29,328 bases of DNA. Source: a virus. The stretch's first letter is position 1; each line of letters opens with the position of its first letter. The stretch covers positions 1 to 29,328 of IMG/VR virus record IMGVR_UViG_3300043444_000093; one strand, given 5' to 3'. The translations under genes and the position numbers were made by a program. Below are positions 2,310 through 28,354 of this stretch, piece after piece. The notes beneath the pieces are model-generated. The model did no database searches. It was not told where the DNA came from and was given only the letters and a program-made list of their open reading frames with translations.

Positions 2310-4370
2310 ATGGAAAACATGGACAATAACGAAGGTACGAAGTGGGAAGAACCAACGGAGTCCGACAAAGAACTCACCGACTTCGTTGTTGAGCACTGCG
2401 ACCGTTGGCGTGATTACCGTGATACTAACTTCCTAGATGCTTGGGAGGAATACGAGCGTATCTTCCGTGGTCAGTGGGCAGCTAACGATAAGACTCGTGA
2501 ATCAGAGCGTTCTAAGCTGGTGTCCCCTGCTACTCAGCAGGCTGTTGAAACACGCCATGCTGAAATTCTTGAAGCTATCTTCGGTCAAGGTGACTTCTTC
2601 GATATTGAGGATAATCTCCAAGATGTGAATGGTAACGACATTGACGTAGAGTTGCTCAAGGCTCAGTTGATGGAAGACTTCTCCAAGGATAAGATCCGTA
2701 AGAGTATCGACCAGATTGAACTCATGGCTGAGATCTACGGTACAGGTATCGGTGAAATCGTTGTTAAAGAGGAAGTTGAGTACGTACCGGCTACTCAAGC
2801 AATCCCCGGCGTACAAGGTCAAGCAGCCATTGGCGTACAGGAAAAGCCTCGTACAGCTGTAAAGATTGTCCCTGTTAACCCTAAGAACTTCTTGTTTGAC
2901 CCTAACGGTACTTCGATTGAGGAGTGCATGGGCGTGGCTATCGAGAAGTACGTCTCTATGCACAAGATTGTCAAGGGCATGGAAGATGGTATCTACCGTA
3001 AGGTTAACGTAGGCCCTATGTACTCAGAGGATAGCTTGGAAGCTACTCAAGAGCCCACTCAGTTCAAGGATGACAAGGTTAAGCTCTTGACTTACTACGG
3101 TCTAGTGCCTCGTGAGTACTTGGAGCAACTGGAGAACAACGAAGCTGAAGTGGTTGACTTGTTCCCTGAGGACTCAAGTGCTGATGACTACGCTGATTTG
3201 GTTGAGGCAATTATTGTTATCGCTAATGACTCTTTGTTGCTCAAGGCAGAGCCTAACCCTTACATGATGAAGGATCGTCCTGTTATCTTGTATCAAGACG
3301 ACACAGTTCCTAATCGTTTGTTAGGTCGTGGTACTGTTGAGAAGGCTTACAACATGCAAAAGGCTATTGACGCTCAGGTGCGTAGCCATTTGGACTCTCT
3401 AGCTCTCACAAGTGCTCCTATGATCGCTATGGACGCTACTCGTCTCCCACGTGGTGCTAAGTTCGAGGTTAAGCCCGGTAAAGCTATCTTGACCAACGGT
3501 GCTCCACAGGAGATCTTGTACCCATTCACATTCGGTCAGACAGGTACTAGCAACTTAGCTACCTCTAAAGAGTTCGAGCGTATGCTCTTACAGGCTACTG
3601 GTACTCTTGACTCACAAGGCATGGTGTCTTCAGTGTCTCGTGACGCTGGTCAAGGCGGTATTTCGATGGCTGTTGCCTCGATTATCAAGAAGTACAAGCG
3701 TACCTTGACTAACTTCCAAGAAGATTTCCTGATGCCTTTCATCAAGAAGGCTGCTTTCCGTTACATGCAGTTCGATCCTGAGCGTTATCCTTCAGTTGAT
3801 ATGAACTTCTTGCCGACAGCTACCTTGGGTATCATGGCTCGTGAGTACGAACAACAGCAGTTCATCGCTCTCTTACAGACTCTTGGCCCTAACACACCAG
3901 TGCTACCAGTGATCTTGAAGGGTATCGTACAGAACAGCTCTCTAAGTAACCGCTACGAGATGATCGCAGAGCTTGAGAAGATGAGTCAACCTGACCCACA
4001 ACAGCAACAGATGCAGCAAATGCAGGCTCAGTTGGCTATTGAGGCTGCTCAGGCACAGATTGCAGTCAATACTACTCAAGCTAAACGCAACGAAGCTGAA
4101 GCTATCAATACGATGGTGGAGACTCAGTTGAAACCTAAGGAGGTAGAGGCTAAGATTATCGCTTCCACGACTCAGAATTTGCCTAATAATGACCAATTAG
4201 CTTCACAAGAGTTCGAGAAACGAGTCAAAATTGCTGACTTAATGCTCAAAGAAGCAGACATCAAGAACAAAGCGAAGATCGTTGAGTTGCAGATGAGCAA
4301 GCACAAGCAGGAACAGTCTAATTCTGATGCTGAGTTCTTGAAAAGCTTGACTGAAGGTTTGAATAAATGA
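2310..4370 (+). CDS. Portal (head-tail connector) protein
   Basis: It forms the ring at the unique capsid vertex through which DNA enters and leaves. The 686-aa length and the position right after the large terminase fit large portals of short-tailed phages. The N-terminus has acidic and aromatic helices (DRWRDYRDTNFLDAWEEY), followed by a basic patch and a long mixed body. The C-terminal 110 residues are rich in Gln, Ala and Lys and look like a long helix or coiled coil, typical of portal barrel regions. A promoter lies just upstream. ATG 2310 has only a weak ribosome site; ATG 2319 is a possible alternative. The next gene starts inside the stop region (4-base overlap). Confidence 0.85.
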   Translation: MENMDNNEGTKWEEPTESDKELTDFVVEHCDRWRDYRDTNFLDAWEEYERIFRGQWAANDKTRESERSKLVSPATQQAVETRHAEILEAIFGQGDFFDIEDNLQDVNGNDIDVELLKAQLMEDFSKDKIRKSIDQIELMAEIYGTGIGEIVVKEEVEYVPATQAIPGVQGQAAIGVQEKPRTAVKIVPVNPKNFLFDPNGTSIEECMGVAIEKYVSMHKIVKGMEDGIYRKVNVGPMYSEDSLEATQEPTQFKDDKVKLLTYYGLVPREYLEQLENNEAEVVDLFPEDSSADDYADLVEAIIVIANDSLLLKAEPNPYMMKDRPVILYQDDTVPNRLLGRGTVEKAYNMQKAIDAQVRSHLDSLALTSAPMIAMDATRLPRGAKFEVKPGKAILTNGAPQEILYPFTFGQTGTSNLATSKEFERMLLQATGTLDSQGMVSSVSRDAGQGGISMAVASIIKKYKRTLTNFQEDFLMPFIKKAAFRYMQFDPERYPSVDMNFLPTATLGIMAREYEQQQFIALLQTLGPNTPVLPVILKGIVQNSSLSNRYEMIAELEKMSQPDPQQQQMQQMQAQLAIEAAQAQIAVNTTQAKRNEAEAINTMVETQLKPKEVEAKIIASTTQNLPNNDQLASQEFEKRVKIADLMLKEADIKNKAKIVELQMSKHKQEQSNSDAEFLKSLTEGLNK

Positions 4371-5494
4371 AACTAGAAGACTTGGAAACTAAATTAGGTA
4401 TCTCAGGTCTTTCTGAGGAAGGTAAACTCGCCCTAGTAAAGGACATCCAAGCTAATCTCCCATCGTTGAAGGCTGAGCAGATGAAACTTGAGTCTCAAAC
4501 TCAGGCTCAGATGGTCATTGCAGCGGTTAAGAAGATTCAAGAGAACGTAGAGAACCGTTTTAATGAGCTTTCAGGCTTCATTGAGAACAAAGCAGCTAAG
4601 ATCACCTCAGGTAAGGACGGTATTCAAGGCCCTAAAGGTGAAAAAGGCGATAAAGGCGATCGAGGCGCTGATGGCTACCAAGGTCGTGACGGTAAAGACG
4701 GTAAAGATGGTGAAAAAGGGGATCAAGGCGTAGGCGTAGCTGACGCTAGAGTTGACTTCGATGGATCTCTGGTCATCACTTTGACCGATGGCACTGAGAT
4801 TGACGCCGGTGAAGTTCTCCCATTAGACACCACTGAGAAGCTAAAGGTTTACTTTAATAACCCTGCACCCACTGGCGGTGGAGGCGCTGTAGATTCGGTT
4901 AACGGTCAAACAGGGGAAGTTGTTTTAACAGCCTCTGATGTAGGTGCTGCTACAACTGCTCAAGGGACTAAGGCAGACACTGCTTACGGATGGGGTAATC
5001 ACGCCTCAGCTGGCTATCTAACTACCTTTACTGAAACAGACCCTGTATTTGTTGCTCACGCAGCCTATAACGTAACTAACACTAAGATCTCTAACTGGGA
5101 TAGCGCCTACTCTTGGGGCAACCATGCCTCTGCTGGTTACGCTGTCCTTACAACGGCTCAATCGTACACAGCAGCTCAAAGAGGCGCTGTATCTGCGCTT
5201 ACTGATGGTGCAACTATCACGCCTAACTTTGCCGCAGCTAACAACTTTAGCGTCACTTTAGGCGGCAGCCGTACTTTAGCTAATCCTACTAATCTTACGG
5301 CTGGTCAATCGGGGATTATAAAGATTACACAGGATGCTACAGGTTCTCGAACACTAGCTTTCGGTTCTTATTGGAAGTTCTCTAACGGAACTGCTCCTAC
5401 CTTAACTACAACAGCGAACGCAGTTGATGTATTAGCTTACTACGTTGATAGCTCAACCACGATCACAGCTAAATTGATTACAGACCGTAAATAA
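4367..5494 (+). CDS. Collagen-like tail fibre / virion appendage protein
   Basis: This 375-aa protein is probably a trimeric fibre on the virion. Order of parts: a helical N-terminus (1-80), about 14 uninterrupted collagen Gly-X-Y triplets (residues 82-123) rich in GKD, GEK and GDK, and a Gly-rich linker. Then come two copies of a fibre motif containing WGNHASAGY and a C-terminal domain (270-375). That last domain is about 88% identical to the C-terminus of the fibre gene at 11121-11729. Charged GKD/GEK triplets are typical of bacterial and phage collagens, which trimerise without hydroxyproline. It overlaps the portal stop by 4 bases (ATGA), so it is co-translated with portal. Its position between portal and scaffold is unusual for a fibre. 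Confidence 0.75.
   Translation: MKLEDLETKLGISGLSEEGKLALVKDIQANLPSLKAEQMKLESQTQAQMVIAAVKKIQENVENRFNELSGFIENKAAKITSGKDGIQGPKGEKGDKGDRGADGYQGRDGKDGKDGEKGDQGVGVADARVDFDGSLVITLTDGTEIDAGEVLPLDTTEKLKVYFNNPAPTGGGGAVDSVNGQTGEVVLTASDVGAATTAQGTKADTAYGWGNHASAGYLTTFTETDPVFVAHAAYNVTNTKISNWDSAYSWGNHASAGYAVLTTAQSYTAAQRGAVSALTDGATITPNFAAANNFSVTLGGSRTLANPTNLTAGQSGIIKITQDATGSRTLAFGSYWKFSNGTAPTLTTTANAVDVLAYYVDSSTTITAKLITDRK
5174..5491 (+). repeat. Duplicated fibre C-terminal domain, copy A
   Basis: It encodes the 106 residues from AQRGAVSALTDG to the C-terminus. Copy B is at 11409-11726. By eye, 93 of 106 residues are identical with no gaps, but many synonymous bases differ. Confidence 0.9.
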
Positions 5495-5527
5495 ATAAAA
5501 GATGTGTAAAAAGTACTCAAAAAGTGC

Positions 5528-5556
5528 TTGACAAGACATAAAAAATAGTATACATT
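5528..5556 (+). promoter_or_regulatory. Sigma70-type promoter before the capsid-assembly genes
   Basis: TTGACA (5528-5533), a 17-base spacer and TACATT (5551-5556) sit in the 94-base gap after the collagen-like gene. They should drive the genes from 5589 through scaffold and capsid. Confidence 0.7.
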
Positions 5557-5588
5557 ACGTATTTATTAATTACAAGGTTCTCCTTTAT

Positions 5589-5828
5589 ATGGACAAAGAA
5601 CTTATCAGATTTTACGAGGATGCTTTCTCAATGATGTCCACTCAAGGGTGGAAAGATTTGATGGAAGACATCGAGCGTGTAAAGAATAGCTACGACAAAC
5701 TATCTGCTGTCACGGAAACACACCCATTAGACTTTCGTCGTGGACAGCTTGATATTTTGAACTGGTTATACGGCCTGAAAGGGTCGTACGAGAAGACGTA
5801 TGAGGAACTCACACAGGAGGCATTATGA
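5589..5828 (+). CDS. Small helical protein of unknown function
   Basis: I do not recognise this 79-aa protein. It appears all helical, with many charged and aromatic residues (FYEDAF, WKDLMEDIERVKNSYDKL, RRGQLDILNWLYGLKGSYEKTYEEL) and no cysteines or membrane segment. It is the first gene after the promoter at 5528-5556 and overlaps the next gene by 4 bases (ATGA), so the two are probably made together. Its place before scaffold and capsid suggests a virion or assembly role, which is inference only. Confidence 0.75.
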   Translation: MDKELIRFYEDAFSMMSTQGWKDLMEDIERVKNSYDKLSAVTETHPLDFRRGQLDILNWLYGLKGSYEKTYEELTQEAL

Positions 5829-6061
5829 GCCTACGCATGTTTGAGTTTGTTTGTACTAATTCTCACCGCACTGAAGCTTTGGTAGATACGGAAGTCCACG
5901 CAACTCCTTGTAAGGAATGTGGCTCTGAGGCAACTAGAGTGATAAGCGCACCTACCATGAAGTTAGAGGGCTTTACAGGCTCTTTTCCTACAGCCTATGA
6001 CTCATGGGAACGCAAGCGATCTGAAAAGCTCGCCCAAGAAAAAAAAGCTAACGCAAGTTAG
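5825..6061 (+). CDS. FmdB-like zinc-ribbon protein
   Basis: The 78-aa protein starts with MFEFVC and carries CKECG about 25 residues later, a pattern like the FmdB-type putative regulatory zinc ribbons. The expected first CxxC is degenerate here (only one Cys at VCTNSH, possibly with the His as ligand), so metal binding may be altered. The C-terminal half (PTMKLEGFTGSFPTAYDSW, then a basic tail) is typical of the phage version found near capsid genes. A strong ribosome site (GGAGG) precedes the ATG, which overlaps the previous stop. Function is unknown. Confidence 0.7.
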   Translation: MSLRMFEFVCTNSHRTEALVDTEVHATPCKECGSEATRVISAPTMKLEGFTGSFPTAYDSWERKRSEKLAQEKKANAS

Positions 6062-6155
6062 TGTAGTAGGACTCATAAGTAGAAATACCGAGTTCATTTT
6101 AAAAATATCCTAGAACCACATTATTTTACTAGATAGTGGCAGGAAAGAGGGCAAT

Positions 6156-6932
6156 ATGTTAATTGATGACGAAGAGACGCAGGATAAGTTTGACCAAGTA
6201 GAAGATACTGATAACCAAACTAATACTGAGCAAGTTGAAGCAGCTAAAGAGGAAAGTAAACCTATCATTCCTGAGAAATATCAGGGTAAAAGTGTAGACG
6301 AAATCATCAAGATGCACCAAGAGGCTGAGAAGCTCATTGGTAAGCAAGCTCAAGAGGTAGGTGAAGTAAGGAAACTTGCTGATGACCTTATCAAGCAGAA
6401 CCTCCAATCAACAAATAAACCTGTTGTAGAAGAGCCTGAAGTGGATTTCTTTGAAGATCCTCAGAAAGCAATTCGTAAGACAGTTGAACAGCATCCTGAT
6501 GTCTTGGCAGCTAAACAAGCTTCCCAAGAGTTCAAACGGATGAATATTCAACAGAAGCTGGCACAGACACATCCTGACTTCCAACAAGTCGTTCAAGATG
6601 CAGGCTTCGCTGAGTGGGTTAAAGCCTCTCCAGTGCGCTTGAGTCTGTACGCTAAGGCCGATGGTGAATATGATTTCGACAGTGCTAATGAATTGTTGTC
6701 TACCTATAAACAACTGAAGACTATTCAGACTAAGCAAGTCGCTGCTGTGGACAATACGGCGCGTCAGCAGTCTCTAAAGGCAGCTAGTGTGGATGTAGGT
6801 GGAACTGGTGAATCATCTAAGAAAGTCTATAGGCGCACCGACCTTATTCGGCTGAAAATGACTGACCCTGACCGTTACGAAGCACTCCAACCAGAGATTA
6901 TGCTCGCGTACAGTGAAGGTCGGATCAAGTAA
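6156..6932 (+). CDS. Capsid scaffolding protein
   Basis: It guides assembly of the prohead and is then expelled. The evidence is its position directly before the major capsid gene, its 258-aa length and its composition: a very acidic N-terminus (DDEETQDKFDQVEDTD), long helical charged segments, almost no cysteine, and a basic C-terminus (KVYRRTDLIRLKM, then SEGRIK) of the kind that binds coat protein. A good ribosome site, AGGAAAGAGG, lies just upstream. The sequence itself shows no catalytic motif. The 94-base gap before it holds no gene and no clear promoter. Confidence 0.8.
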   Translation: MLIDDEETQDKFDQVEDTDNQTNTEQVEAAKEESKPIIPEKYQGKSVDEIIKMHQEAEKLIGKQAQEVGEVRKLADDLIKQNLQSTNKPVVEEPEVDFFEDPQKAIRKTVEQHPDVLAAKQASQEFKRMNIQQKLAQTHPDFQQVVQDAGFAEWVKASPVRLSLYAKADGEYDFDSANELLSTYKQLKTIQTKQVAAVDNTARQQSLKAASVDVGGTGESSKKVYRRTDLIRLKMTDPDRYEALQPEIMLAYSEGRIK

Positions 6933-6966
6933 TTTAATAACTTAATCTTATCAAGGATACTTTAAA

Positions 6967-7899
6967 ATGGCACTCGGTACTAACCACGTAACCACCACCA
7001 CAGCAGCTAACTTTATTCCAGAAATTTGGAGTGATGAAATTGTTGCTGCTTACAAGAAAAACCTCGTTTGCGCGAACCTCGTCAAGAAGATGTCGTTCAA
7101 AGGCAAAAAAGGTGATACAGTTCACATCCCTAGCCCAACTCGTGGCTCTGCTTCCGCTAAGGCTGCTTCGACTCAAGTTACATTGATCGCTGCTACTGAA
7201 GGCGTTGTGGACGTGTCTATCAACAAGCACTACGAATACAGCCGTTTGATCGAAGACATCGTCGAAGCTCAAGCTCTGTCTAGCCTGCGTTCTTTCTACA
7301 CTGAAGACGCTGGTTACGCTCTTGCTAAACAAGTGGACACTGACTTGATCCGTTTGGGTCGTCTGTCTCAAGGTGGCGCTGGTGCTCGTTACGCTGGTGC
7401 TTTCATCGGCTCTGACGGTACTACCGCTTATGACTACACCACTGACAACCAAGCTGCTTTGACTGACGCTGCAATTCGTCGTTCTATTCAGCGCTTGGAT
7501 GACGCTGATGTGCCTATGGACGGTCGTTTCTTTATCGTTCCTCCAGCAAGCCGTAACACGCTGATGGGCTTGGCTCGTTTCACTGAACAAGCTTTCGTTG
7601 GCGAACAAGGTGGTTCTAACACCATCCGTAACGGTGAAATTGGTGACGTGTACGGCGTTAAAGTGTACGTGTCTACTAACTGTGACACAGCTAATGACGC
7701 TAACGACGGTTCTGGTACAGCTCAAGCTGCTCGTATCGCTCTGATGGCTCATAAAGACGCTTTCGTGTTGGTTGAGCAAGTCGGCATCCGTTCACAGACT
7801 CAGTACAAACAAGAATACCTCGGTACTCTGTTCACTGCTGACACTCTGTACGGTGTTGCTGAGTTGCGTGACTACTCCAGCGTTGCTTTGGCTGTTTAA
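6967..7899 (+). CDS. Major capsid protein
   Basis: This 310-aa protein follows the scaffold and is taken as the HK97-fold coat subunit that forms the icosahedral shell. Supporting features are the N-terminal region with ANFIPEIWSDEIV, typical of phage coats of this size, a charged extended-loop region (KKMSFKGKKGDTVHIP), and a long helix after YEYSRLIEDIVEAQ. Codon use is strongly skewed to GCT, CGT, GGT and CTG, which fits very high expression. That same bias creates a long spurious open frame on the opposite strand. AAGGATA lies upstream of the ATG, and a hairpin follows the stop (7911-7938). Confidence 0.9.
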   Translation: MALGTNHVTTTTAANFIPEIWSDEIVAAYKKNLVCANLVKKMSFKGKKGDTVHIPSPTRGSASAKAASTQVTLIAATEGVVDVSINKHYEYSRLIEDIVEAQALSSLRSFYTEDAGYALAKQVDTDLIRLGRLSQGGAGARYAGAFIGSDGTTAYDYTTDNQAALTDAAIRRSIQRLDDADVPMDGRFFIVPPASRNTLMGLARFTEQAFVGEQGGSNTIRNGEIGDVYGVKVYVSTNCDTANDANDGSGTAQAARIALMAHKDAFVLVEQVGIRSQTQYKQEYLGTLFTADTLYGVAELRDYSSVALAV

Positions 7900-7910
7900 T
7901 AGCTAGACTG

Positions 7911-7938
7911 AAGGGAATCCTCAAAAGGGGTTCCCTTT
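7911..7938 (+). terminator. Stem-loop after the major capsid gene (attenuator-like terminator)
   Basis: AAGGGAATCC (7911-7920) pairs with GGGTTCCCTT (7928-7937) over 10 bp with one G-U pair and a 7-base loop. Only a short T run follows (TTT, then GG), so termination is probably partial, lowering expression of downstream genes relative to capsid. Confidence 0.6.
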
Positions 7939-7968
7939 GGTGTATCTATTACAGAGAGATTACTCTTT

Positions 7969-8169
7969 ATGTTATCAGCAACATTCAAATACGTACTCAC
8001 AGGCGCTACTGTGACATTCACGAATCAGTTAGACATTGACTCCATGAAGGGTCATCCTGAGTACGTTCGTGTTGACGATACCCCCGAAGTCACCCCTCAA
8101 GTTACCCCCGAAGTCAAGAAAGCCGGTCGTCCACGTAAGACTGAAACACCTACAGCTGAGGCGGCTTAA
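7969..8169 (+). CDS. Small capsid-adjacent protein with TPEV repeats and AT-hook-like tail
   Basis: I do not recognise the family of this 66-aa protein. Residues 1-35 look like a small beta structure (TFKYVLTGATVTFTNQLDI). Then comes a Pro-rich repeat (TPEVTPQVTPEV) and a basic AGRPRK motif like an AT hook, ending in an Ala/Glu tail. Position just after the capsid suggests a capsid-associated or DNA-contacting protein. It lies downstream of the hairpin at 7911-7938 and is followed at 2 bases by the next gene. Confidence 0.65.
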   Translation: MLSATFKYVLTGATVTFTNQLDIDSMKGHPEYVRVDDTPEVTPQVTPEVKKAGRPRKTETPTAEAA

Positions 8170-8171
8170 TT

Positions 8172-8375
8172 ATGGATGAAGTATCAGCGCGTGAGTTTGG
8201 TCGTTTAGAAGCTCAGGTGGAAGCTCTTCAAAATGAAGTACATACCCTTAGCAAAGACGTTAAATGCCTTCTAGAGTTAGCCAATAAGTCTAAAGGTGGT
8301 TTCTGGATGGGTATGACCATTGCCTCTTTAGTTGGTGGCGGTATCACATTCTTCATGGACAGAGTATTTAAATAG
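8172..8375 (+). CDS. Coiled-coil protein with C-terminal membrane segment
   Basis: The 67-aa protein has an N-terminal helix with heptad pattern (FGRLEAQVEALQNEVHTLSKDVKCLLEL) and one hydrophobic C-terminal segment (FWMGMTIASLVGGGITFFM), followed by a short basic end. This is the layout of small phage membrane proteins sometimes annotated as holin-like or Rz-like. The real lysis cassette lies 11 kb downstream, so its role here is open: it could be a second holin or a virion-associated membrane peptide. It sits tightly between two small structural-region genes. Confidence 0.65.
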   Translation: MDEVSAREFGRLEAQVEALQNEVHTLSKDVKCLLELANKSKGGFWMGMTIASLVGGGITFFMDRVFK

Positions 8376-8388
8376 TAAAGGACACAAG

Positions 8389-8577
8389 ATGGCAACTAAA
8401 AAACAAAACAAGAAGGTTGGTAAGGTTATGGGCGAGTACAAAGAAGGTACTCTTCATAGCGGCAAAGGTGGCCCTGTTGTCACAGACCGTAAACAAGCTA
8501 TCGCTATCGGCATGTCTGAAGCTAAGATGCCCATGCGTGGTCAGCGTACAGCCAAGAACAAAGCTAAGAAGAAGTAA
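8389..8577 (+). CDS. Small basic DUF6496-like protein
   Basis: The 62-aa protein is very rich in Lys and Arg. Its core, GKVMGEYKEGTLHSGKGG followed by DRKQAIAIGMSEA, resembles the DUF6496 family found in phage structural regions and bacteria, where the function is unknown. The start at 8389 was chosen because AAAGGA lies at 8378-8383; a longer in-frame GTG start at 8332 would run through the previous gene. A DNA-binding or capsid-packaged role is plausible from the charge but not shown. Confidence 0.7.
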   Translation: MATKKQNKKVGKVMGEYKEGTLHSGKGGPVVTDRKQAIAIGMSEAKMPMRGQRTAKNKAKKK

Positions 8578-8580
8578 GTA

Positions 8581-8919
8581 ATGGCTCGTCCTGTAACGGT
8601 AGGTTTAAACCTTACTGCTAATACTCTGACAACTGTCTACACTGTTCCTACTGGCTACTACGCTAAATGGAACTTAATGTATTTGTTCAACGGTACAGGC
8701 AGCACTAAGAGCATGACTGTTTACTGGACGGATACAAGCGCATCAGCTGACATTTACGTATTGAATCAGAATAATATTTCCTCTAAAGAGTACCTACGTA
8801 TTGATGGCGGAGCTTATGTCGTAATGGAAGAAGGCGACAAAGTGATGATGCAAAGTGAGACAGGAAGCTCGTTCAGTACTATCTGCACATTTGAGCTATT
8901 TAAGAAAGACGGTGTTTAA
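8581..8919 (+). CDS. Small beta-rich virion protein
   Basis: This 112-aa protein is rich in Thr, Tyr, Val and Ser, with alternating hydrophobic patterns (TLTTVYTVPTGYYAKWNLMYLFN) suggesting a beta sandwich. No catalytic motif is seen. Gene order (capsid, small proteins, then neck) suggests a head decoration or head-tail completion protein. The ATG directly follows the previous stop (3 bases). The assignment is contextual. Confidence 0.7.
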   Translation: MARPVTVGLNLTANTLTTVYTVPTGYYAKWNLMYLFNGTGSTKSMTVYWTDTSASADIYVLNQNNISSKEYLRIDGGAYVVMEEGDKVMMQSETGSSFSTICTFELFKKDGV

Positions 8920-8922
8920 TCC

Positions 8923-9573
8923 ATGGCAACATATCTCGATTTAGTTAACGATGTGCTTATCAGGCTTCGTGAACCTGAGGTAGCTAACGTCTCTGATACT
9001 ACGTACTCTAAACTTATCGGTAAGTTCGTCAACGATGCTAAACGTCAGGTTGAGAACGCTTACGATTGGAATGACATCTCCGAGACATTCACGTTTAACA
9101 CCTCAGCAAGCACTTATCAGTACGCTCTGACTGGTGTGAATAGTCGTTACAAGATTCTTCAGGTAATTGACAATACTAAGAACATTGAACTGAATCCTTG
9201 CACAGTAGCTTGGTTCAATCGTCAAATTACTCAAGACAATCCTACAAACAACGACCCTTATATGTACGTTGTCGATGGTGTTAACGCTTCTCGTAAGCCT
9301 TATCTCAACTTGTGGCCTATTCCATCAGGTACTAACAGTATCAATGTGTACTTGGTTAATCCACAGAATGATCTCTCAGATGACACTGATGTTCTATATG
9401 TTCCTTACGAGCCTGTGGTACTTGGTGCTTACGCCCGTGCTTTAGTGGAGCGCGGTGAGGATGGTGGTTTGAATAGCTCAGAAGCTTACCAGTTGTTTAG
9501 GACTTCTCTCTCAGATCAGATTGCCTTAGAGTCCTCTCGCTCAGTTGAAGGTGCTAACTGGAGTCCAGTGTAA
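8923..9573 (+). CDS. Head-to-tail adaptor (neck / tail tubular A-like) protein
   Basis: The 216-aa protein begins MATYLDLVNDVLIRLREPEV and continues into a helical pattern with YSKLIGKFVNDAKRQVENAYDWN. This matches the helical ring adaptors of short-tailed phages (T7 gp11 / P22 gp4-type) that sit under the portal. The C-terminal half is mixed, with a final helix. Together with the nozzle-like protein next to it, it would form the short tail tube. The next ATG shares the last A of this stop codon (TAATG), implying coupled translation. Confidence 0.75.
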   Translation: MATYLDLVNDVLIRLREPEVANVSDTTYSKLIGKFVNDAKRQVENAYDWNDISETFTFNTSASTYQYALTGVNSRYKILQVIDNTKNIELNPCTVAWFNRQITQDNPTNNDPYMYVVDGVNASRKPYLNLWPIPSGTNSINVYLVNPQNDLSDDTDVLYVPYEPVVLGAYARALVERGEDGGLNSSEAYQLFRTSLSDQIALESSRSVEGANWSPV

Positions 9574-11105
9574 TGGCTCAACAAGTACAAGCGTTTGCGA
9601 TCTCTGCTCCGGGCTTCTACGGCCTCAATAAGCAGGATAGTAGCCTTGATTTGTCTACTAACTACGCTCTTACAGCAACCAATGCAGTTATCGACAAGTT
9701 CGGACGTATCGGTGCTCGTAAGGGCTGGACACCTATTAACTCTACACCTGTGACAGGTGACGTAGAAGTTATCGGTGAGCTTATCTCCAATTCAGGAACT
9801 TCGTACATCCTCTGTGCAGCTGGTTCTAAGCTGTTTAAACTGGATGGAAGCTCTCTTGTTGAATTGACTTACGGTGGTGGCGGATCAGCCCCTACTATCT
9901 CAGATGCTAACTGGCAGATTGCAACGCTGAACGGTATTGCTTATTTTTATCAGCGTGGTTATGATCCTTTAATATTCGATCCTGCCGTTAGCTCTACTAC
10001 ATTCCGACGAGTCTCTGAGAAGTCAGGATACGCTGGTACTGCACAGCAAGGTAACTGTGTTATTAGTGCTTACGGTCGTATCTGGTCAGCTGATACATCG
10101 ACAGATAAGAACACTGTAGCCTTTAGTGACTTACAAGCTGGACACGTATGGACAACAGGTAGCGCAGGTACTTTGGATGTCTCTGAGGTATGGCCTGCGG
10201 GTGCTGATGAGATTGTAGCCTTAGGTGCTTTCAATAACTTCCTGATTATCTTCGGTCGTCGTCAGATCCTTATCTACTCTAACGCTACTGATCCTACGTC
10301 TATCACGTTAAATGACACTATCGTAGGTTACGGTTGTATCGCTCGTGACTCAGTAGCTAACACTGGTACTGACTTGTTGTTCTTGTCTGATAGCGGTGTA
10401 CGTTCTCTGTTACGTACAGTTCAGGAAAAGTCTAACCCTCTGCGTGAAGCATCTAAGAATGTACGCGATGACTTGATGACTTACTTAAACAGTGAGACAT
10501 TGGCTGACATCAAGGGTGTGTACTCAGGTATTGAAGCTTTCTACTTGCTTAATTTACCCTTTGCAGGTGTTACTTACTGTTTCGATACACGACAGGCCCT
10601 GCAAGACGGTTCAGCTCGTGTGACTGAATGGACGAATATTAATCCATCAGCTATGTTCGCAGCTAAGAATCGTACTTTGTACCTAGGTCAAGACGGTTAC
10701 TTAGCTCAGTACTCAGGGTACAACGACAACACAGGTACTTATCGTTTTTCTTACTACAGCACATACGTTGACTTAGGCAGTCCTACCGTATCGTCTATCT
10801 TGAAGCGAATTCAAGTTACTTGCGTTGGTGGCTCAGGTCTTGACTTAGTAATGAAGTGGGACTTTGATTATCTCTACGCTTACAGATCTGAGACAAAAAC
10901 AATTCAAGATCAGACCGTAGCTGAATATGGCTCAGGTGAGTACGGAATATCTCAGTATTCCTCAGGTGTTGTCTTAGATATTCTCAGTGCGAATGCTTCA
11001 GGCGCTGGCAAAGTAGTTCAGTTAGGTTTTGAAGCTGAGATAGATGGTGAGCAATTATCTATTCAAAAGGTTGACATTTTAGCTAAACAAGGTAAAATTG
11101 TTTAA
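9573..11105 (+). CDS. Tail nozzle / stabilisation protein (P22 gp10-like)
   Basis: This 510-aa protein is dominated by short beta strands, as in the propeller-like nozzle proteins that close the tail of short-tailed phages. The N-terminal motif FGRIGARKGWTPIN and repeated aromatic strand pairs are typical. Position directly after the adaptor and before the fibres supports this. Start and adaptor stop overlap by one base. Near its 3' end lies a promoter (11071-11098) for the fibre genes. The exact family cannot be confirmed without a profile search. Confidence 0.75.
   Translation: MAQQVQAFAISAPGFYGLNKQDSSLDLSTNYALTATNAVIDKFGRIGARKGWTPINSTPVTGDVEVIGELISNSGTSYILCAAGSKLFKLDGSSLVELTYGGGGSAPTISDANWQIATLNGIAYFYQRGYDPLIFDPAVSSTTFRRVSEKSGYAGTAQQGNCVISAYGRIWSADTSTDKNTVAFSDLQAGHVWTTGSAGTLDVSEVWPAGADEIVALGAFNNFLIIFGRRQILIYSNATDPTSITLNDTIVGYGCIARDSVANTGTDLLFLSDSGVRSLLRTVQEKSNPLREASKNVRDDLMTYLNSETLADIKGVYSGIEAFYLLNLPFAGVTYCFDTRQALQDGSARVTEWTNINPSAMFAAKNRTLYLGQDGYLAQYSGYNDNTGTYRFSYYSTYVDLGSPTVSSILKRIQVTCVGGSGLDLVMKWDFDYLYAYRSETKTIQDQTVAEYGSGEYGISQYSSGVVLDILSANASGAGKVVQLGFEAEIDGEQLSIQKVDILAKQGKIV
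11071..11098 (+). promoter_or_regulatory. Sigma70-type promoter before tail-fibre genes
   Basis: TTGACA (11071-11076), a 16-base spacer and TAAAAT (11093-11098, 5 of 6) lie at the end of the nozzle gene. A start near 11105 would fall just before the fibre gene at 11121. Confidence 0.6.
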
Positions 11106-11120
11106 GGATATAGGAATAAT

Positions 11121-11729
11121 ATGAGTAATTACACAAAAAGTACGGACTTCGCTAGTAAGGATACCCTTCCTTCTGGTGATTCAGCTAAGATTGTACGTGG
11201 TACTGAGATTGACGCTGAGTTTGAAGCTTTAGAGACAGCTGTTAACTCTAAATACGATAGTTCATCCACTATTGCTGTCGCTAACGGTGGCACAGGAGCT
11301 ACGACAGCCTCAGGTGCTCGTACTAACTTAGGTCTCGTTATCGGCACTGATGTCCAAGCCTACGATGCTGATACAGCTAAGACTGATGTTGCTCAGACAT
11401 TCACTGCTGCACAACGAGGCACTGTATCTGCTCTGACAGACGGCGCTAGCATCACACCTAACTTTGCCACTGCTAACAACTTCAGCGTAACATTGGGTGG
11501 TAGTCGTACATTGGAGAACCCCACTAACATTACCGCCGGTCAATCAGGCATCATCGTCATCACTCAAGACGGTACAGGCTCACGCACATTGGCGTATGGT
11601 AGTTATTGGAAGTTCTCTAACGGTACAGCGCCTACATTGACCACAACAGCTTCTGCCGTGGATGTGTTGGCTTACTACGTTGAGTCTTCTACACGAATCA
11701 CTGCAAAACTCGTAACGGATGTGAAGTAA
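11121..11729 (+). CDS. Tail fibre protein
   Basis: The 202-aa protein has an N-terminal region with DAEFEALETAVNSKYD, then the classic fibre motif IAVANGGTGATTASGARTNLGL. Its C-terminal 106-residue domain (97-202) nearly duplicates that of the collagen-like gene at 4367-5494. The short length suggests a fibre base or a shaft carrying a small head domain. A promoter lies at 11071-11098. The stop shares a base with the next start (TAATG). The shared C-terminal domain may be a trimerisation or receptor-binding module; that is inference. Confidence 0.8.
   Translation: MSNYTKSTDFASKDTLPSGDSAKIVRGTEIDAEFEALETAVNSKYDSSSTIAVANGGTGATTASGARTNLGLVIGTDVQAYDADTAKTDVAQTFTAAQRGTVSALTDGASITPNFATANNFSVTLGGSRTLENPTNITAGQSGIIVITQDGTGSRTLAYGSYWKFSNGTAPTLTTTASAVDVLAYYVESSTRITAKLVTDVK
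11409..11726 (+). repeat. Duplicated fibre C-terminal domain, copy B
   Basis: It encodes residues 97-202 of the fibre, starting AQRGTVSALTDG. It is the counterpart of 5174-5491, with 13 amino-acid differences in 106 and many silent base differences. Confidence 0.9.
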
Positions 11730-13354
11730 TGAGCGTCATAACTAACAATCTGTTGTTGGGAGAGGACGGCTACAACATTAGTCGTTCTGTGCGTCTGCGC
11801 TCAAGTGCGAGTGCATATTTCAATAGGACACCTGCTGGTGCTGGCAACCGTAAGACTTGGACTTGGAGTGCTTGGGTTAAGCGCGGTTCGCTTGGTGTTC
11901 TTACAACGCTGTTTGGCACAAACGTAGTCAACAACGATTCCCAAGCGTTTGCCATATATTTCGGCAGTGACGATAAACTGGGCGTTGTCCCTTGGTCAAA
12001 CAGTGTGTTTGTAACTAACGCTGTATTCCGCGACCCTTCTGCTTGGTATCACATAGTAGTTGCGTTTGATTCCACGCAAGCGACCGCAGCCAATCGCGTC
12101 AAGGTTTATATCAATGGTGTCAACCAGTCTGGCACTTACCCCTTGGCTGTCACTTTGAATACTGACTACGCCATCAACCAAGCTGGTTCACATCGCCTTG
12201 GTGATTTCCCTGCCGCTGGTTTTGGAACATTCGACGGCTACCTGACCGAAATCAACTTCATTGACGGACAAGCCCTGACACCATCGAGCTTCGGCGAAAC
12301 AGGCAGCATCACAGGCGTGTGGAAGCCAAAGAAGTACGCTGGCACATACGGCACTAACGGCTTCTTCCTGAACTTCTCAGACAACAGCAACAACACAGCA
12401 GCCACCATTGGCAAGGACAGCTCAGGTAACGGCAACAACTGGACACCCAACAACATCTCGGTGACTGCTGGTGCGACCTACGACTCAATGCTTGATGTGC
12501 CTACGATGTGGGCTGATGGCGGGAATGGGCGTGGTAACTACGCTGTTATCAACCCGTTGGCTACTGGCGCTGACGCAACAATCTCAAATGCAAACCTGAG
12601 TGTTGCATACGGTACGAGCGCAACTATCAGCACAACGCTTGGCACATTCGGAATGTCGTCTGGGCAATGGTATTGGGAAAACACAATCACCGCTTCTAGC
12701 CTTTCAGGGGCAACAAGTTATATTGGTATGGTCAACCAATCAAACCCAACAGCAGCTGGCGCATATCCTGGCGCAACTTCGGGCGGTTGGAGTTATTACG
12801 GCAACCTTGGGACATTCCTGAACAATGGGAGCAATGTTCAGTCTGGTTTGGCTACTTATGGCGCTAACGATGTAATTGGCATTGCGTTTGATGCAGACGC
12901 TGGCACGCTCAAGTTCTACAAAAATAACACCCAGATTGGTACGACAATCACAGGCATCGCGGCTGGAACATATTTCCCTGCTTGGTCTGATGGCTCGGTT
13001 GGCAACACATTTACTATTGCCGCCAACTTCGGTCAACGCCCATTCGCCTACACCCCACCCACAGGCTTCAAAGCACTGAACACTCAGAACTTGCCAGCGG
13101 GTAGCATCACGACAAGCGGTTCGTTCACGGGTAACGCTAGCGCAGATGGGCCTTTTGTTTACCTTAACGGTGTACCAACTGCAATGACGATCAATGGAAA
13201 CGCTGTGACATTTGCAACTCATGCAGACAAAACCGCAAACGGCTTCAAAGTCAGATCATCCTCAAGCAGCTACAACGCTTCAGGCTCAAACACATATAGC
13301 ATCACAACAACTGGTGCTAAATTTAAATACGCAAACGCACAGGGGAACCCATGA
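11729..13354 (+). CDS. LamG- and SPRY-like receptor-binding tail protein
   Basis: This 541-aa protein is probably a host-recognition tail protein. Residues about 20-190 resemble a LamG/concanavalin-like carbohydrate-binding fold (SAYFNRTPAGAGNRKTWTWS, WYHIVVAFDS, VKVYINGV, GYLTEINFIDG). Residues about 290-440 resemble a SPRY-type sandwich (GQWYWENTI, DVIGIAFDADAGTLKFYKN). Base use differs from its neighbours: GGC, GCA, AAC and ACA are common, and the CTA/TTA-rich style of flanking genes is scarce. That suggests recent acquisition or exchange. It starts in the stop of the previous fibre and ends overlapping the next gene by 4 bases. Confidence 0.8.
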   Translation: MSVITNNLLLGEDGYNISRSVRLRSSASAYFNRTPAGAGNRKTWTWSAWVKRGSLGVLTTLFGTNVVNNDSQAFAIYFGSDDKLGVVPWSNSVFVTNAVFRDPSAWYHIVVAFDSTQATAANRVKVYINGVNQSGTYPLAVTLNTDYAINQAGSHRLGDFPAAGFGTFDGYLTEINFIDGQALTPSSFGETGSITGVWKPKKYAGTYGTNGFFLNFSDNSNNTAATIGKDSSGNGNNWTPNNISVTAGATYDSMLDVPTMWADGGNGRGNYAVINPLATGADATISNANLSVAYGTSATISTTLGTFGMSSGQWYWENTITASSLSGATSYIGMVNQSNPTAAGAYPGATSGGWSYYGNLGTFLNNGSNVQSGLATYGANDVIGIAFDADAGTLKFYKNNTQIGTTITGIAAGTYFPAWSDGSVGNTFTIAANFGQRPFAYTPPTGFKALNTQNLPAGSITTSGSFTGNASADGPFVYLNGVPTAMTINGNAVTFATHADKTANGFKVRSSSSSYNASGSNTYSITTTGAKFKYANAQGNP

Positions 13355-13860
13355 AATACAAATTAGCAAACAATCAATTGGTTGGTGAGTATCAAGCATT
13401 CACCTATAACGAAGTTCAATACCCCGAGAATTGGATTGCTTTGTCAACTTTACAAGAACGTCAAGCGCTTGGAATTCAAGAATTTGAAGAACAGCAACGT
13501 CCAGATGATCGTTTTTATTTTGTGACTGACAATGGTGATGGCACGTATTCGGCTGTCGCCAAAGACTTAAACGATGGTGATGAATATGTTGATTTGCGCG
13601 GTGTCACTCGTTGTGTGCAGGGCTTGAAGTCAACTTGGTCTGCTCAGATCAAAGACACAACCAACAAGCTCTTGGCTGCAACCGATTGGATGGTTATTCG
13701 CAAGGCTGAACGTGATGTAGCTATTCCTGCTGAGACTGTTACCTATCGTGCTGCTGTGTTGGCTGAGTGTGATCGTCTCTTGGTTGCTATCTCTGGAGCT
13801 ACTGATGTTGATGCTTTGGCTGCTGTGGTGGGTGCTCAACAATGGCCTGAATCAGCTTAA
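13351..13860 (+). CDS. Tail fibre assembly-like protein (DUF4376-like C-terminus)
   Basis: The 169-aa protein has an N-terminal beta-rich part and a C-terminal helical region, TNKLLAATDWMVIRKAERDV followed by AIPAETVTYRAAVLAE. This pattern is common in fibre assembly / DUF4376-type proteins placed next to tail fibres, where they help fold the fibre or cap it. Overlap with the preceding gene (ATGA) fits a chaperone made with its client. If the neighbour was acquired by transfer, the pair may have moved together. Confidence 0.7.
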   Translation: MKYKLANNQLVGEYQAFTYNEVQYPENWIALSTLQERQALGIQEFEEQQRPDDRFYFVTDNGDGTYSAVAKDLNDGDEYVDLRGVTRCVQGLKSTWSAQIKDTTNKLLAATDWMVIRKAERDVAIPAETVTYRAAVLAECDRLLVAISGATDVDALAAVVGAQQWPESA

Positions 13861-16252: not shown

Positions 16253-18907
16253 ATGGCTCTTAGTGAACAAGAGTTTGCAGAACTGCAAGCGCTCGTGGGC
16301 GGTTCCACACCTACAAAACCTTCTACTCCTTTGTCTACCGTTGGTGGCGGACGAGGTGTTGCTCAATTAGGCACTACATCTCCTAATCAGCAAATTGCTG
16401 CTCAACGACAGTATCAACAAGAACAACAATTAGCGGCTCAAAAGAAAGCATTAGAAGAAAAGGGTTGGTTAGGCTACACGGCAGGAAATGCACTTGATGT
16501 CTTGACAGGCCGGGGTGAAGGTAATATTGCCTCTAATCTTATCACAGGCGGTCTTACACGGGCTGCTGCTGCCTTAGGTAGTCAACCTTCTCAGCAAGAA
16601 CTTGCCCAAGCTGAGATGAACGCTCGTCGTGAGAAGCAATTACAAGAAGACTTGTATGGCCCTCAAACCTTTGCTGAAAAAGTAGGCACAGGTCTTACTA
16701 ATGTGGCTCGTTACGCTACTCAGGAACCCGGTTTGTTTACATCTCAGATGGCGTCTGGTTTAGCTGATCCTACTGCTTTGGCTTTGGGTGGCCTCGGTGC
16801 CCCTATTAGAGGTGCTGGAACAGCTGTTAACTTAGCTAGAGCTGTTGGCGGAGGCGCTGCTGCCACAGGTGCTGAGTCTCTTGCTCGTTCCTTTGGTCAA
16901 GGTGCTGCCGACGTCGAACAAGCTGCACAAGAAGCAGCCATTGGTGGAGTTCTTTCAGGTATTCCAACTGCATTAGGCGGAATTATTTCTGCACCCGGTA
17001 AGGCTATTCCTCGTACAACAGGTCAAGATCTATTTACTCTTCCTGAACGTATGGCAGCTCAAAAAGTATTGGCTGAAGGTGGCGGTACTCTTACAGCTGA
17101 ACAAGCAGGCGGAGTTGCTGCAAAAATAGGTACAAAAGTAGCCGCTGCTGGCGCAGGAACATTTCCTTTGATGTCTGTACGTGAGAATGCAGGTAAAGCC
17201 ATTATCTCAGCTCGTGACAAAATCATTGATAGTATTGCTAAAGATGCTCCGGATGCTTTGACTACAGGGACATCTATCAATCAGATTATCAACGCTGGTG
17301 CTAAAGCTTTAAAGACAGAAGTTAGACCTTTCTTTGATAATTTAGATACAAACTCTAAGGGTATTACCGTCAGAACACAAGATGTCTGGCAGCCTGCTCG
17401 TGAAGCTATTGATAACGCTACAGCTCTTACTAAATCAGGTAAGGCTGTTGGTATTGGCGCTGAAACTCTTTCTGAATTACAGAGTATTGCAGACTTAAAG
17501 AATAACCTTACATTTGGTCAAGCACATGAGTTTGCCTCTAATTTGAAGGCACGTATTCGTGAACTGTCTGATGAAACAGGGGCTACAAGTGTAACAGTCG
17601 GTAAACTTCGTAAAGCTCTCGGTTCGTTAGAAGGAGCTATGGATGAAGCAGCTAACAAATTAAATCCTGAGTTTAAGAATAAATACGATGCTGTCATTGG
17701 CGAATACCGTAAGGGTATGTCATCGCTATATCCTGAAACCTTAGCTACATTGGTTAAACGTGATCCTGAGAAGATTGGGCAAGCAATTACTCAGACAGGT
17801 AATGAAACTAAGATTAACGCTGTGTTTCAAGCTTTAAATTACGCTAAACAAAAAGATAGTAATGTCAATACAGAAGCTGTTAAAGCTGGTCTCCGTAAAG
17901 GCTACTTGGAAGGTTTATTAGCTAAAAAATTAGACACTCCTACATCAGTGGAAGAGGCAACAAGTATTCTCGGTAAGTTTAAAAACATTGCCAACAGTCT
18001 TGAACAAGAAAAAGTACGTAGAACCTTTGACGCTCTCTTTGAAAGCCCTGAGCATAAAAAGATGATCGAAGACTTATTGACAGCAGCTAAGGTGGCTTCG
18101 TCAGGTACAAAACCTAGCATGTTGAACTTAGGATCTGCTGCTGGTCTTACAGGTATTTATGGTGGCTCTGTTGCTGGCGGTGTTGGTTTGGCAGGTCTAG
18201 CAGCTATTGCCGGAACTCAGTTAGGTTTGGGGTATATCCTTTCTCGCCCTTCCACAACTCGTCTGTTATTGTCTATTGAGCGTATGACTCAAAAAGGTCA
18301 ACAAAGTCAGGCTAATAAACTGGCTAATAAACTCTTGACACAGTTGGAAACTGCTGGAGTAGCTAACGCTATTCAGAATGCTCAACAGCAACAAGGAGAA
18401 CCCACTCAAGTGGCTCCTATGCCTGAGACAACAACTCAGCCTGCTCAACAGACACAGCAGCCTGCCTCTCAAGGTTTGTCTGATGCTGAATTTGAAGAGC
18501 TGAAGCGAGAGATCCAGAAGTCTAGCAAGCCACAGAAGCAACAAGTATCGTCTATTATCGAAGATGAGGCTGCTCGTTTAGGTATCCCTGAACATACTGC
18601 TTTGTTGACTAAACTGGCTAATCAAGAATCAGGTTTCAAGCAATCGGCAGTGTCTCCTAAAGGCGCTATCGGCGTGATGCAGCTCATGCCAGCAACTGCT
18701 CAGGAACTTGGTGTTGATCCTGCTGACTTAGAGCAGAATGTACGTGGCGGTGTTCGCTACTGGGCTAAACAGTTGAAGTTCTTTAACGGCGATACAAAAC
18801 TAGCTACAGCAGCCTATAACGCTGGCGCTGGTAATGTTATCAAAGCTGGTAATCAAGTGCCTAACTTTAAAGAAACTCAGAATTACGTGGCTGCTATCGT
18901 AGGTTAA
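16253..18907 (+). CDS. Internal virion protein with C-terminal lytic transglycosylase domain
   Basis: This 884-aa protein is ejected with the DNA and should open peptidoglycan locally during entry. Residues 1-150 are Gln-rich and helical. Residues 170-250 are Gly/Ala-rich and may be membrane-active. A long helical body follows, then a hydrophobic Gly/Ala stretch near 625-655. A Gln/Pro-rich linker (about 700-765) leads to an SLT domain (766-884) with catalytic Glu in NQESGF (E792), then KGAIGVMQLMPATA and AAYNAGAGNV, all family hallmarks. T7 gp16 has the same enzyme at its N-terminus, so the C-terminal placement is different. AAGGAAT precedes the ATG. Confidence 0.85.
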   Translation: MALSEQEFAELQALVGGSTPTKPSTPLSTVGGGRGVAQLGTTSPNQQIAAQRQYQQEQQLAAQKKALEEKGWLGYTAGNALDVLTGRGEGNIASNLITGGLTRAAAALGSQPSQQELAQAEMNARREKQLQEDLYGPQTFAEKVGTGLTNVARYATQEPGLFTSQMASGLADPTALALGGLGAPIRGAGTAVNLARAVGGGAAATGAESLARSFGQGAADVEQAAQEAAIGGVLSGIPTALGGIISAPGKAIPRTTGQDLFTLPERMAAQKVLAEGGGTLTAEQAGGVAAKIGTKVAAAGAGTFPLMSVRENAGKAIISARDKIIDSIAKDAPDALTTGTSINQIINAGAKALKTEVRPFFDNLDTNSKGITVRTQDVWQPAREAIDNATALTKSGKAVGIGAETLSELQSIADLKNNLTFGQAHEFASNLKARIRELSDETGATSVTVGKLRKALGSLEGAMDEAANKLNPEFKNKYDAVIGEYRKGMSSLYPETLATLVKRDPEKIGQAITQTGNETKINAVFQALNYAKQKDSNVNTEAVKAGLRKGYLEGLLAKKLDTPTSVEEATSILGKFKNIANSLEQEKVRRTFDALFESPEHKKMIEDLLTAAKVASSGTKPSMLNLGSAAGLTGIYGGSVAGGVGLAGLAAIAGTQLGLGYILSRPSTTRLLLSIERMTQKGQQSQANKLANKLLTQLETAGVANAIQNAQQQQGEPTQVAPMPETTTQPAQQTQQPASQGLSDAEFEELKREIQKSSKPQKQQVSSIIEDEAARLGIPEHTALLTKLANQESGFKQSAVSPKGAIGVMQLMPATAQELGVDPADLEQNVRGGVRYWAKQLKFFNGDTKLATAAYNAGAGNVIKAGNQVPNFKETQNYVAAIVG

Positions 18908-21850: not shown

Positions 21851-23758
21851 TTAGATCTCACAACCACCCGCAGTACATGAAAGGGTCTGAGCACCTTCCA
21901 CGTTATCAGTGACTTCCTTCATGTTTTCCCAATCAATAGATGTAGGCATTGCCACAAGGAGCGAATCATACGTTGCTTCGTCGATAGCCTCATAGGGAGC
22001 CTGTCGATACGTACCGCCATCCATAGGCAAATACGATACGCCAGTGATCTCATCGAAGTTCTCCCATGTCCAAGCTCCTACTTTAGGCCACTCATTCTCA
22101 TTGACTGAGATTGTAACAGATGGTTTATGTTCACACCAGTGGCGCTGGAATGTCAACCACAAGTCCAAGTGCTCAATAGCGTTCAAGTCCTCACGCAGAC
22201 GAGCACCTTCAGGTGTCTTCATAGGGAAGGAGAAGACAACAGTTGACTCAGGTTTCATCACACAAGGCTCCCAAGGGAATCCAGAGTCCTTCAAGAAAGA
22301 AGTAAGCGGATCTTTGGCGTCAGAGCGTACACGACGAATGAAATAAGAACTATGTTGAGGATGAATGCCGCTAGCAGTACCAGTGAGTTGACTAACAGTT
22401 CCCTCAGGCTTGACACACGTGATCGCAGCAGAAGGATTGATGCCCAATTCAGCAGCAAGATGCTTATTAGTATCCACAGCGACATTCTTCAACTCCTCTA
22501 ATCGTGCTGGCAGGTCTTTGTCGTAGGCGTTGTTGAGCAACGTATTGTCCAAGATACCTGTCATGGAGACACCCAACAAACGTTCTTCCTCTGTATTAGT
22601 CTGCCACACCTTACGAAGGTACGGGAAGCTAGTCAAGGTCGATTGGAAGGTTCCCAAGATTGTCGCAATAGTGACTTTTTCTTTAAGAGACTCCAATGTA
22701 TCCCCCGCACGAACAATAACTGAGCTGAGGTTGCAAAATTGGTAAGGGCGGAGAATGATTTCAGAACAAGGGTTAGTGCCCCATTCTTTACCGAGTACAC
22801 GGCGACCATTCTTAGATGCTTGAATTTCCGAAGCATAGCGGTTAAAGATTCCACGTTCACCTGAGTGACTTTCATAAATGTTGCTCCATTCACGCATAAA
22901 CTGACCTACGTCAGGCTTGACATCGTACACTGCTGAGTTGTTAGCCAAGGCTCGTTGACCGTTACCGTCCCACCAGTTACCTGCTTTAGCGTGAGCCATA
23001 CGATCATCATCCAAGTCAGACAGAGAGATCATAGCTGATCGACGAACTCCACCGACAACCACAACTTCTCCAATCTTACAGAGAATATCATGAGCTTCAA
23101 TCGAGAAGAGCTTGCGGCCTTGGGCAGTTTTAAACTTAGTGACCACGTACTTAAAGAGTTCGACCAACGGCTCTGGGCCACTCGCACGTCCCCCGAACGT
23201 CTTGAGGCGTGTGCCAGCAGGACGCACAGAAGAGACATCCCACTTAGGGACTTCTCCAGCCCATAGGAGTGCCATGACCTGTCGTAGCGCCTTTGCCCAT
23301 CCTTCTTTGGAGTCTTTAACGTGAACCACAGTATTAGACTCGTAAAGCTTCTCAGGAATTTCAGGTAAACGGTTGACATACTTACGCTCCACAGAGAAAC
23401 CTACACCTGTACCACACAGGAGGATGTACATAGCCTCATCGAAGGCTTTAGGGTCATCAATAGGTAGGAAAGAACAGTTATAACCAGCCACGTTCTGACG
23501 TTCCAAGGCATCACCAGCGGTCATCAAAGAGCGCATAGAGGGCATAACGTCTAGATTCAATACAGCATCTTCAAGACGTGTACGAAGCTCAGGTGTCAAG
23601 GTGTAGCTATGTTTGTCACTTAGGTGACTCTCCATGAAGTCAAAGTAACGTGATACTGTCTCATTCCAGTGTTCACGACGACCTTTATCGTCCAAGTAAC
23701 GTGAATAACGGCTCTTGGCTATATAAGTTTGAAAAGGATTCATTTCAGTGTGCTTCAT
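21851..23758 (-). CDS. nrdJ: Class II (adenosylcobalamin-dependent) ribonucleotide reductase
   Basis: The enzyme converts ribonucleotides to deoxyribonucleotides, feeding phage DNA synthesis with or without oxygen, using coenzyme B12 taken from the host. At 635 aa it resembles the monomeric type (Lactobacillus leichmannii form, about 740 aa). Visible are the first active-site Cys in GYNCSFLP (C95), NPCSEI with radical C331 and E333, C342 in QFCNLSS, the substrate loop region KPEGTVSQLTG, and the C-terminal redox pair in SCTAGGCEI. All catalytic residues are present. It overlaps the GIY-YIG gene upstream by 14 bases and has only a weak ribosome site, so coupling is likely. Confidence 0.93.
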   Translation of the reverse strand: MKHTEMNPFQTYIAKSRYSRYLDDKGRREHWNETVSRYFDFMESHLSDKHSYTLTPELRTRLEDAVLNLDVMPSMRSLMTAGDALERQNVAGYNCSFLPIDDPKAFDEAMYILLCGTGVGFSVERKYVNRLPEIPEKLYESNTVVHVKDSKEGWAKALRQVMALLWAGEVPKWDVSSVRPAGTRLKTFGGRASGPEPLVELFKYVVTKFKTAQGRKLFSIEAHDILCKIGEVVVVGGVRRSAMISLSDLDDDRMAHAKAGNWWDGNGQRALANNSAVYDVKPDVGQFMREWSNIYESHSGERGIFNRYASEIQASKNGRRVLGKEWGTNPCSEIILRPYQFCNLSSVIVRAGDTLESLKEKVTIATILGTFQSTLTSFPYLRKVWQTNTEEERLLGVSMTGILDNTLLNNAYDKDLPARLEELKNVAVDTNKHLAAELGINPSAAITCVKPEGTVSQLTGTASGIHPQHSSYFIRRVRSDAKDPLTSFLKDSGFPWEPCVMKPESTVVFSFPMKTPEGARLREDLNAIEHLDLWLTFQRHWCEHKPSVTISVNENEWPKVGAWTWENFDEITGVSYLPMDGGTYRQAPYEAIDEATYDSLLVAMPTSIDWENMKEVTDNVEGAQTLSCTAGGCEI

Positions 23759-28159: not shown

Positions 28160-28354
28160 TTATTGTAGATAGCTACCCTCTTTGCGGGAGAGAGCCTCTG
28201 CTTCATTCTCAATGTAGTCAAGGGCTGCTGAGAGCACCAAGTATACATCGAGAATATCCATGTCGTCAGAGTGGAGAATCATAAATGTTTCATCACTTAT
28301 GTTCAGCATGATCTGACTTTTAATCTTGTCTGTTTTATCAATCAAAATGTACAC
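28160..28354 (-). CDS. Small acidic hypothetical protein, about 64 aa
   Basis: I do not recognise it. The sequence is acidic (DETFMILHSDDMDILDVYLV, then ALDYIENEAEALSRKEG) with a helical C-terminus. The start is uncertain: GTG 28354 overlaps the end of the upstream gene and lacks a strong ribosome site; TTG 28345 and ATG 28309 are alternatives. The frame fills the gap between the PP-loop protein and SSB, which supports it being real. Confidence 0.5.
   Translation of the reverse strand: MYILIDKTDKIKSQIMLNISDETFMILHSDDMDILDVYLVLSAALDYIENEAEALSRKEGSYLQ

Follow-up and report, generated by a model that had tools for sequence, protein, structure and literature searches.

In T-even phages, a separate adhesin, gp38, is encoded by a gene adjoining the fibre gene and caps the end of the gp37 fibre. 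To our knowledge, the gp37-gp38 protein families differ from those of the pair treated here, and the arrangement is not common to two stalks. In CBA120, domains of the tailspike TSP4 (residues 1-335 region) bind other tailspikes (PMC8825819). The head spike fibre and the tail fibre of one RcGTA particle bind the same polysaccharide (PMC10218006). For marine phages, parts of one study place variable recognition-type genes (lectin-like, C1q) adjoining or near the tail fibre gene (PMC3909814).

The window analysed here is the whole 29,328-base IMG/VR virus record IMGVR_UViG_3300043444_000093, which contains exactly two copies of a 106-residue terminal domain. Copy A (5174..5491, + strand) ends a collagen-like stalk protein of 375 aa (4367..5494, +; Pfam Collagen E 2e-7, residues 82-121), encoded between the portal and the scaffold/capsid genes. 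Copy B (11409..11726, +) ends a short tail-fibre protein of 202 aa (11121..11729, +; PHROG tail fibre matches), encoded after the tail genes and having no match in Pfam. The last 106 residues of the two products are identical at 93 positions without gaps (shuffled maximum 22), and identity drops off beyond about 120 residues (99/120). The original prediction had described this match at the same coordinates, on two different stalks and with many silent DNA differences, and on all these points it was right. The copies agree at 230 of 318 nucleotides and differ by 13/10/65 at the three codon positions; 57 of the changed codons are silent and 13 cause a replacement. The dN is about 0.10 and the dS is saturated (NG86 undefined, LWL85 2.3), so that the dN/dS of about 0.05 or less is a bound only. 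Elsewhere the window appears to encode a large ribonucleotide-reductase-like protein (21851-23758, -) and a phosphoadenosine-phosphosulfate-reductase-type protein (28342-29175, -); a long internal virion-type protein has an SLT transglycosylase domain at its end (16253-18907, +; Pfam E 3e-21).

The terminal domain is very common in aquatic phages. Searches of IMG/VR returned at least 544 relatives for copy A and 261 for copy B, and recognisable copies occur in phages of Synechococcus, Caulobacter, Roseobacter, and Methylophilales. The domain ends very different stalks, including collagen and Mtd-N types, in full proteins of about 131-1315 aa, and its mean column identity is 81% across phages with differing stalks and backbones. 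Both window proteins match PHROG 4757 over the C-terminal domain (E 1e-16 for the copy A protein and 2e-18 for the copy B protein), a family that itself carries no assigned function, and the alignment profile found no sequence relatives in the PDB at E<=1. In a set of 98 full-length copies, mean identity between copies of different phages is 81%, and 13.6% of such pairs equal or exceed the 87.7% of window A and B; A is closer to L082 (88.7%) and B to L081 (94%) than A is to B. With so high a background, the likeness of A and B mainly reflects constraint acting on the family at large. The predicted conservation of the protein sequence by selection thus stands as purifying selection on each copy and falls as a bond between the two: the whole family is equally constrained, and no selection tying A to B specifically is needed.

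Copy B leads directly into the gene of a LamG/SPRY putative tip protein of 541 aa (11729..13354, +; Pfam SPRY PF00622, E 1e-15), the ATG of which overlaps the stop codon of the fibre gene (TAATG). The putative tip gene thus comes directly after the fibre gene, the position expected in phage systems composed of a fibre and a separate tip protein. Across the family, a LamG/SPRY-type gene lies directly after 92 of the 94 domain copies that have a downstream ORF, the exceptions being L029, whose neighbour begins MSIFGTTLLLGAS, and L031. The stop and the start of the downstream gene overlap in 84/97 copies (-4 in 71, -1 in 13). Three copies have no following ORF, namely the two collagen-borne ones and L030; the latter is an exception in appearance only, because the locus simply ends there. 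When LamG N-termini were used as the query in a reverse search, the domain was found just upstream in 75 of the 79 loci whose upstream sequence was long enough, and 2 further LamG loci have a different terminal domain in this place. These loci were selected by similarity and not all of them are independent. In 18 cultured or complete phage records, all 12 fibres ended by the domain (PSS2, S2B, S-CBP2, CRP-811, MEP301, JY42, SS120-1, ctXG6705, CRP-406, MedDCM-S37C6, S-B68, and S-CRES3) are followed by a separate protein. Adjacency of the two genes could by itself result from co-transfer.

The putative tip of the window starts with a hydrophobic segment, MSVITNNLLLGEDGY (11729..11773, +), which is proposed to anchor it to the terminal domain. 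LamG proteins encoded behind the domain carry an N-terminal extension in the cultured records sampled, and in six domain-less pelagiphages (five with a ..GGGQFN fibre end, and HTVC011P) the LamG protein starts about 25 residues later, without the extension. The non-LamG downstream proteins of L029, S-CBP2, and JY42 have a short hydrophobic N-terminus too. In Mantel comparisons, domain distance correlates more with tip residues 1-57 (r ~0.37) than with later parts (~0.20), a gradient that could be plain linkage decay. Neither the IMG/VR copies, in which the domain is C-terminal, nor the cultured records examined include a natural fusion of domain and tip. The pelagiphage fibres L327, L329, L330, L334, and L335 have a different conserved end in common (..TTATTYNFTIRATDAE..GGGQFN), upstream of a LamG/SPRY gene; this end is possibly a second adaptor type.

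The AF2 single-chain model of the domain is all beta (pLDDT 85.5, pTM 0.77). Its best match among solved structures is the Pa223 capsid spike (PDB 9ny6; E 2e-4, TM 0.51 over the query, 11% identity), and CBA120 TSP4 residues 1-335 match weakly (E 0.04-0.15, TM 0.43-0.47 by query length); overall, the resemblance to docking-domain folds is weak (TM 0.43-0.51). In BFVD, 207 viral proteins match the model at E<=0.001, several of them labelled tail fibre or collagen repeat. The model of the tip protein is of moderate confidence (pLDDT 66.5), with low confidence for residues 1-15 as a single chain, and it matches SPRY structures (Foldseek E 5e-13); profile and model agree in predicting a SPRY, or concanavalin-like, fold.

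The reading preferred here, to which we give about even chances, is that the domain is a fibre-end adaptor docking the neighbouring LamG/SPRY tip, and that both stalks of the window phage are capped by the same tip. The conserved beta-rich domain ends the stalk and would, probably as a trimer, hold a separate LamG/SPRY tip protein by its N-terminal segment; the gene for this protein comes next and overlaps the fibre gene translationally. In the window phage and its sister, the domain is found at the end of two stalks, the tail fibre and a collagen stalk whose gene lies among the head genes, and a single tip protein would cap both stalk types. The family, the two-way linkage, the conservation, the separate lineages, and the lack of a second detected tip gene are results of the analysis. 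The gene linkage argues for docking, as weakly does the fold; the trimer, the docking, and the sharing we infer from established fibre biology. The 'trimerisation or binding domain' of the original prediction is hereby narrowed to an adaptor for a separate tip protein, on account of the near-universal LamG/SPRY neighbour gene.

Such a domain could also be nothing but a trimerisation or folding cap, as any trimeric stalk needs, with the LamG/SPRY protein attaching elsewhere or being an independent neighbour. The compact beta structure at the end of such diverse stalks and the conservation of copies without a tip gene agree with this, but neither the two-way linkage to one type of neighbour nor the co-occurrence of the domain with the tip extension is explained, and we consider a mere cap unlikely. 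Direct binding of a host surface receptor by the domain, with both stalks recognising the same receptor, would suit its terminal place on fibres and has a parallel in RcGTA, where head spike and tail fibre both bind capsule (PMC10218006). It is improbable, as very high conservation across differing stalks and backbones is unusual for a receptor-binding surface and the variable part is the neighbouring protein, not the domain. The main mechanistic rival for the role of the tip gene is a chaperone of the kind found in Alteromonas phages V22/A5, since pairs of a fibre and a downstream chaperone are known in marine phages (PMC10579305); the LamG/SPRY protein would then be a folding aid or transient fibre cap, absent from the virion, which the collagen stalk needs or borrows. 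Against it speak the large size of LamG/SPRY proteins (often 500-1600 aa), their lectin-type folds and variable C-terminal part, the annotation of homologues as virion structural proteins (labels that are not proof), and the presence after the tip gene of a separate, weakly tail-fibre-assembly-like gene (13351..13860, +; PHROG 4912, E 2e-4), and a chaperone role for the tip is accordingly held to be quite improbable.

An accidental origin of the collagen-borne copy by recombination, with no functional connection to the fibre copy, would agree with the other ends borne by the same collagen gene in close relatives (L337-L340) and with the lack of the domain in L158. Within the collagen slot, however, this copy is under strong purifying selection: between window A and the corresponding copy of the sister record L001 there are 51 silent and 13 replacement codons, and of the 68 positions that are conserved in >=90% of copies, both collagen-borne ones retain 67, while the stalk diverges (44% identical with 171 gap columns, vs 88% and gap-free for the domain). 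An accident is therefore highly improbable. No tip gene follows the collagen-borne copy in the window or in L001, and this copy might act without any tip. The position of the collagen gene between portal and scaffold makes a head- or neck-side fibre possible. A small CxxC zinc-ribbon-like (FmdB-like) protein is encoded between the collagen gene and the scaffold gene (window 5825-6061, +) and is kept in nearly all relatives having the region.

Gene order in the sister record (L001/L141) is the same as in the window, with one copy each in the collagen and the tail-fibre gene; identity is 94% in the capsid, 89% in the portal, and 84% in terL. In the DNA tree (318 nucleotides), window A groups with the collagen-borne L001 A (100/98) and window B with L081 (100/99); in the protein tree the pair of A and L001 A is not resolved. 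The AU test on DNA rejected a clade of window A and B (p=0.0009) and one of L001 A and B (p=0.012); on protein the window clade was left standing (p=0.117), with the same trend as DNA. That A and B arose by recent duplication, or were made alike by gene conversion, is ruled out by the DNA test together with the nearest neighbours, though not by protein alone, and the prediction that this is not a very recent copy is borne out by the DNA tree and the saturated silent sites. As A pairs with L001 A and the sister has both copies, the paired state most likely predates the split of the window and L001 phages. Different lineages for the two domains had been named as evidence against the prediction; such origins are largely what is seen with regard to duplication, but they do not count against joint display, as the sister phage, too, has one copy in each of these genes. 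Nor was the pair passed down vertically throughout the phage group, since some relatives lack this domain subtype: L158 (capsid 93%) gave no domain copy in a whole-record search, and in L337/L338 (capsid 92-93% and collagen N-terminus 84% identical) the collagen protein ends in a domain relative that has diverged far (E ~1e-7, search of 12 proteins), with another putative tip gene behind it. In the collagen or fibre gene of L158 (5324-8496), L216 (5397-8477), L219 (4104-8491), and L221 (11171-13519), stalk ends of further types (..IVSNGTP, ..VPSGSRWVIL) occur, each followed by at least one putative tip gene, some ending in an S74-like chaperone sequence. The collagen slot appears empty in L161, L177, L184, L188, and L195.

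Whole-record searches found two domain copies also in G001 (L001), G022, G026, G037, and G038, and the L028 locus (record G061) holds two as well. Each of these six other two-copy records has one detected LamG N-terminus. They form two phage groups, i.e., two cases and not six independent ones. In the second group (L028, L074, L077, and L143) the tip-less copy ends a short stalk of 165 aa, Mtd-N-like as read from its sequence, and is followed by unrelated genes. No second tip gene was detected in the window. With a single tip gene present and both stalks ending in the adaptor, both are most likely capped by the same tip, and the two stalks of the window phage probably share one tip protein, a sharing that we infer; an unrelated kind of tip might have its gene elsewhere. 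The wider proposal, in which one tip gene serves two structurally different fibres, that of the tail and a collagen fibre on the head or neck side, through a common adaptor, and which arose at least twice (window/L001 and the Mtd-N-type-stalk group), is put forward tentatively, as a possibility we would not bet on.

If the adaptor reading is true, an unnamed domain that is very common at fibre ends in aquatic phages gains a function, a constant junction explains how lectin-like tip genes move among podo-, sipho-, and myoviruses, and one tip gene would set the specificity of two fibre types together. Modular fibres themselves are of a known kind; the new points are the adaptor-tip linkage and the arrangement of two stalks with one tip. 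No earlier description was found in the open-licence literature, and this absence is not proof of novelty.

Among described systems, CBA120 TSP4 XD and T4 gp10 likewise have beta domains in fibre proteins, theirs being trimeric and holding other receptor-binding trimers, and the fold match to them is weak (PMC8825819). The XD domains belong to the N-terminal part of a tailspike, whereas the window domain is the C-terminal end of stalks, and the alignment profile run against the PDB (E<=1) shows no sequence relationship to gp10 or TSP4 XD docking domains. The best fold match, Pa223 (PDB 9ny6), is a capsid spike with low identity. The tail-fibre chaperones of V22/A5 are comparable to the tip gene by neighbour position only (PMC10579305). 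The marine fibre neighbours are treated in PMC3909814, in the parts concerned with them, without the domain, the N-terminal extension, or a two-stalk/one-tip arrangement. The two fibre proteins of RcGTA have no detectable homology to each other, whereas the two stalk ends of the window phage are 88% identical.
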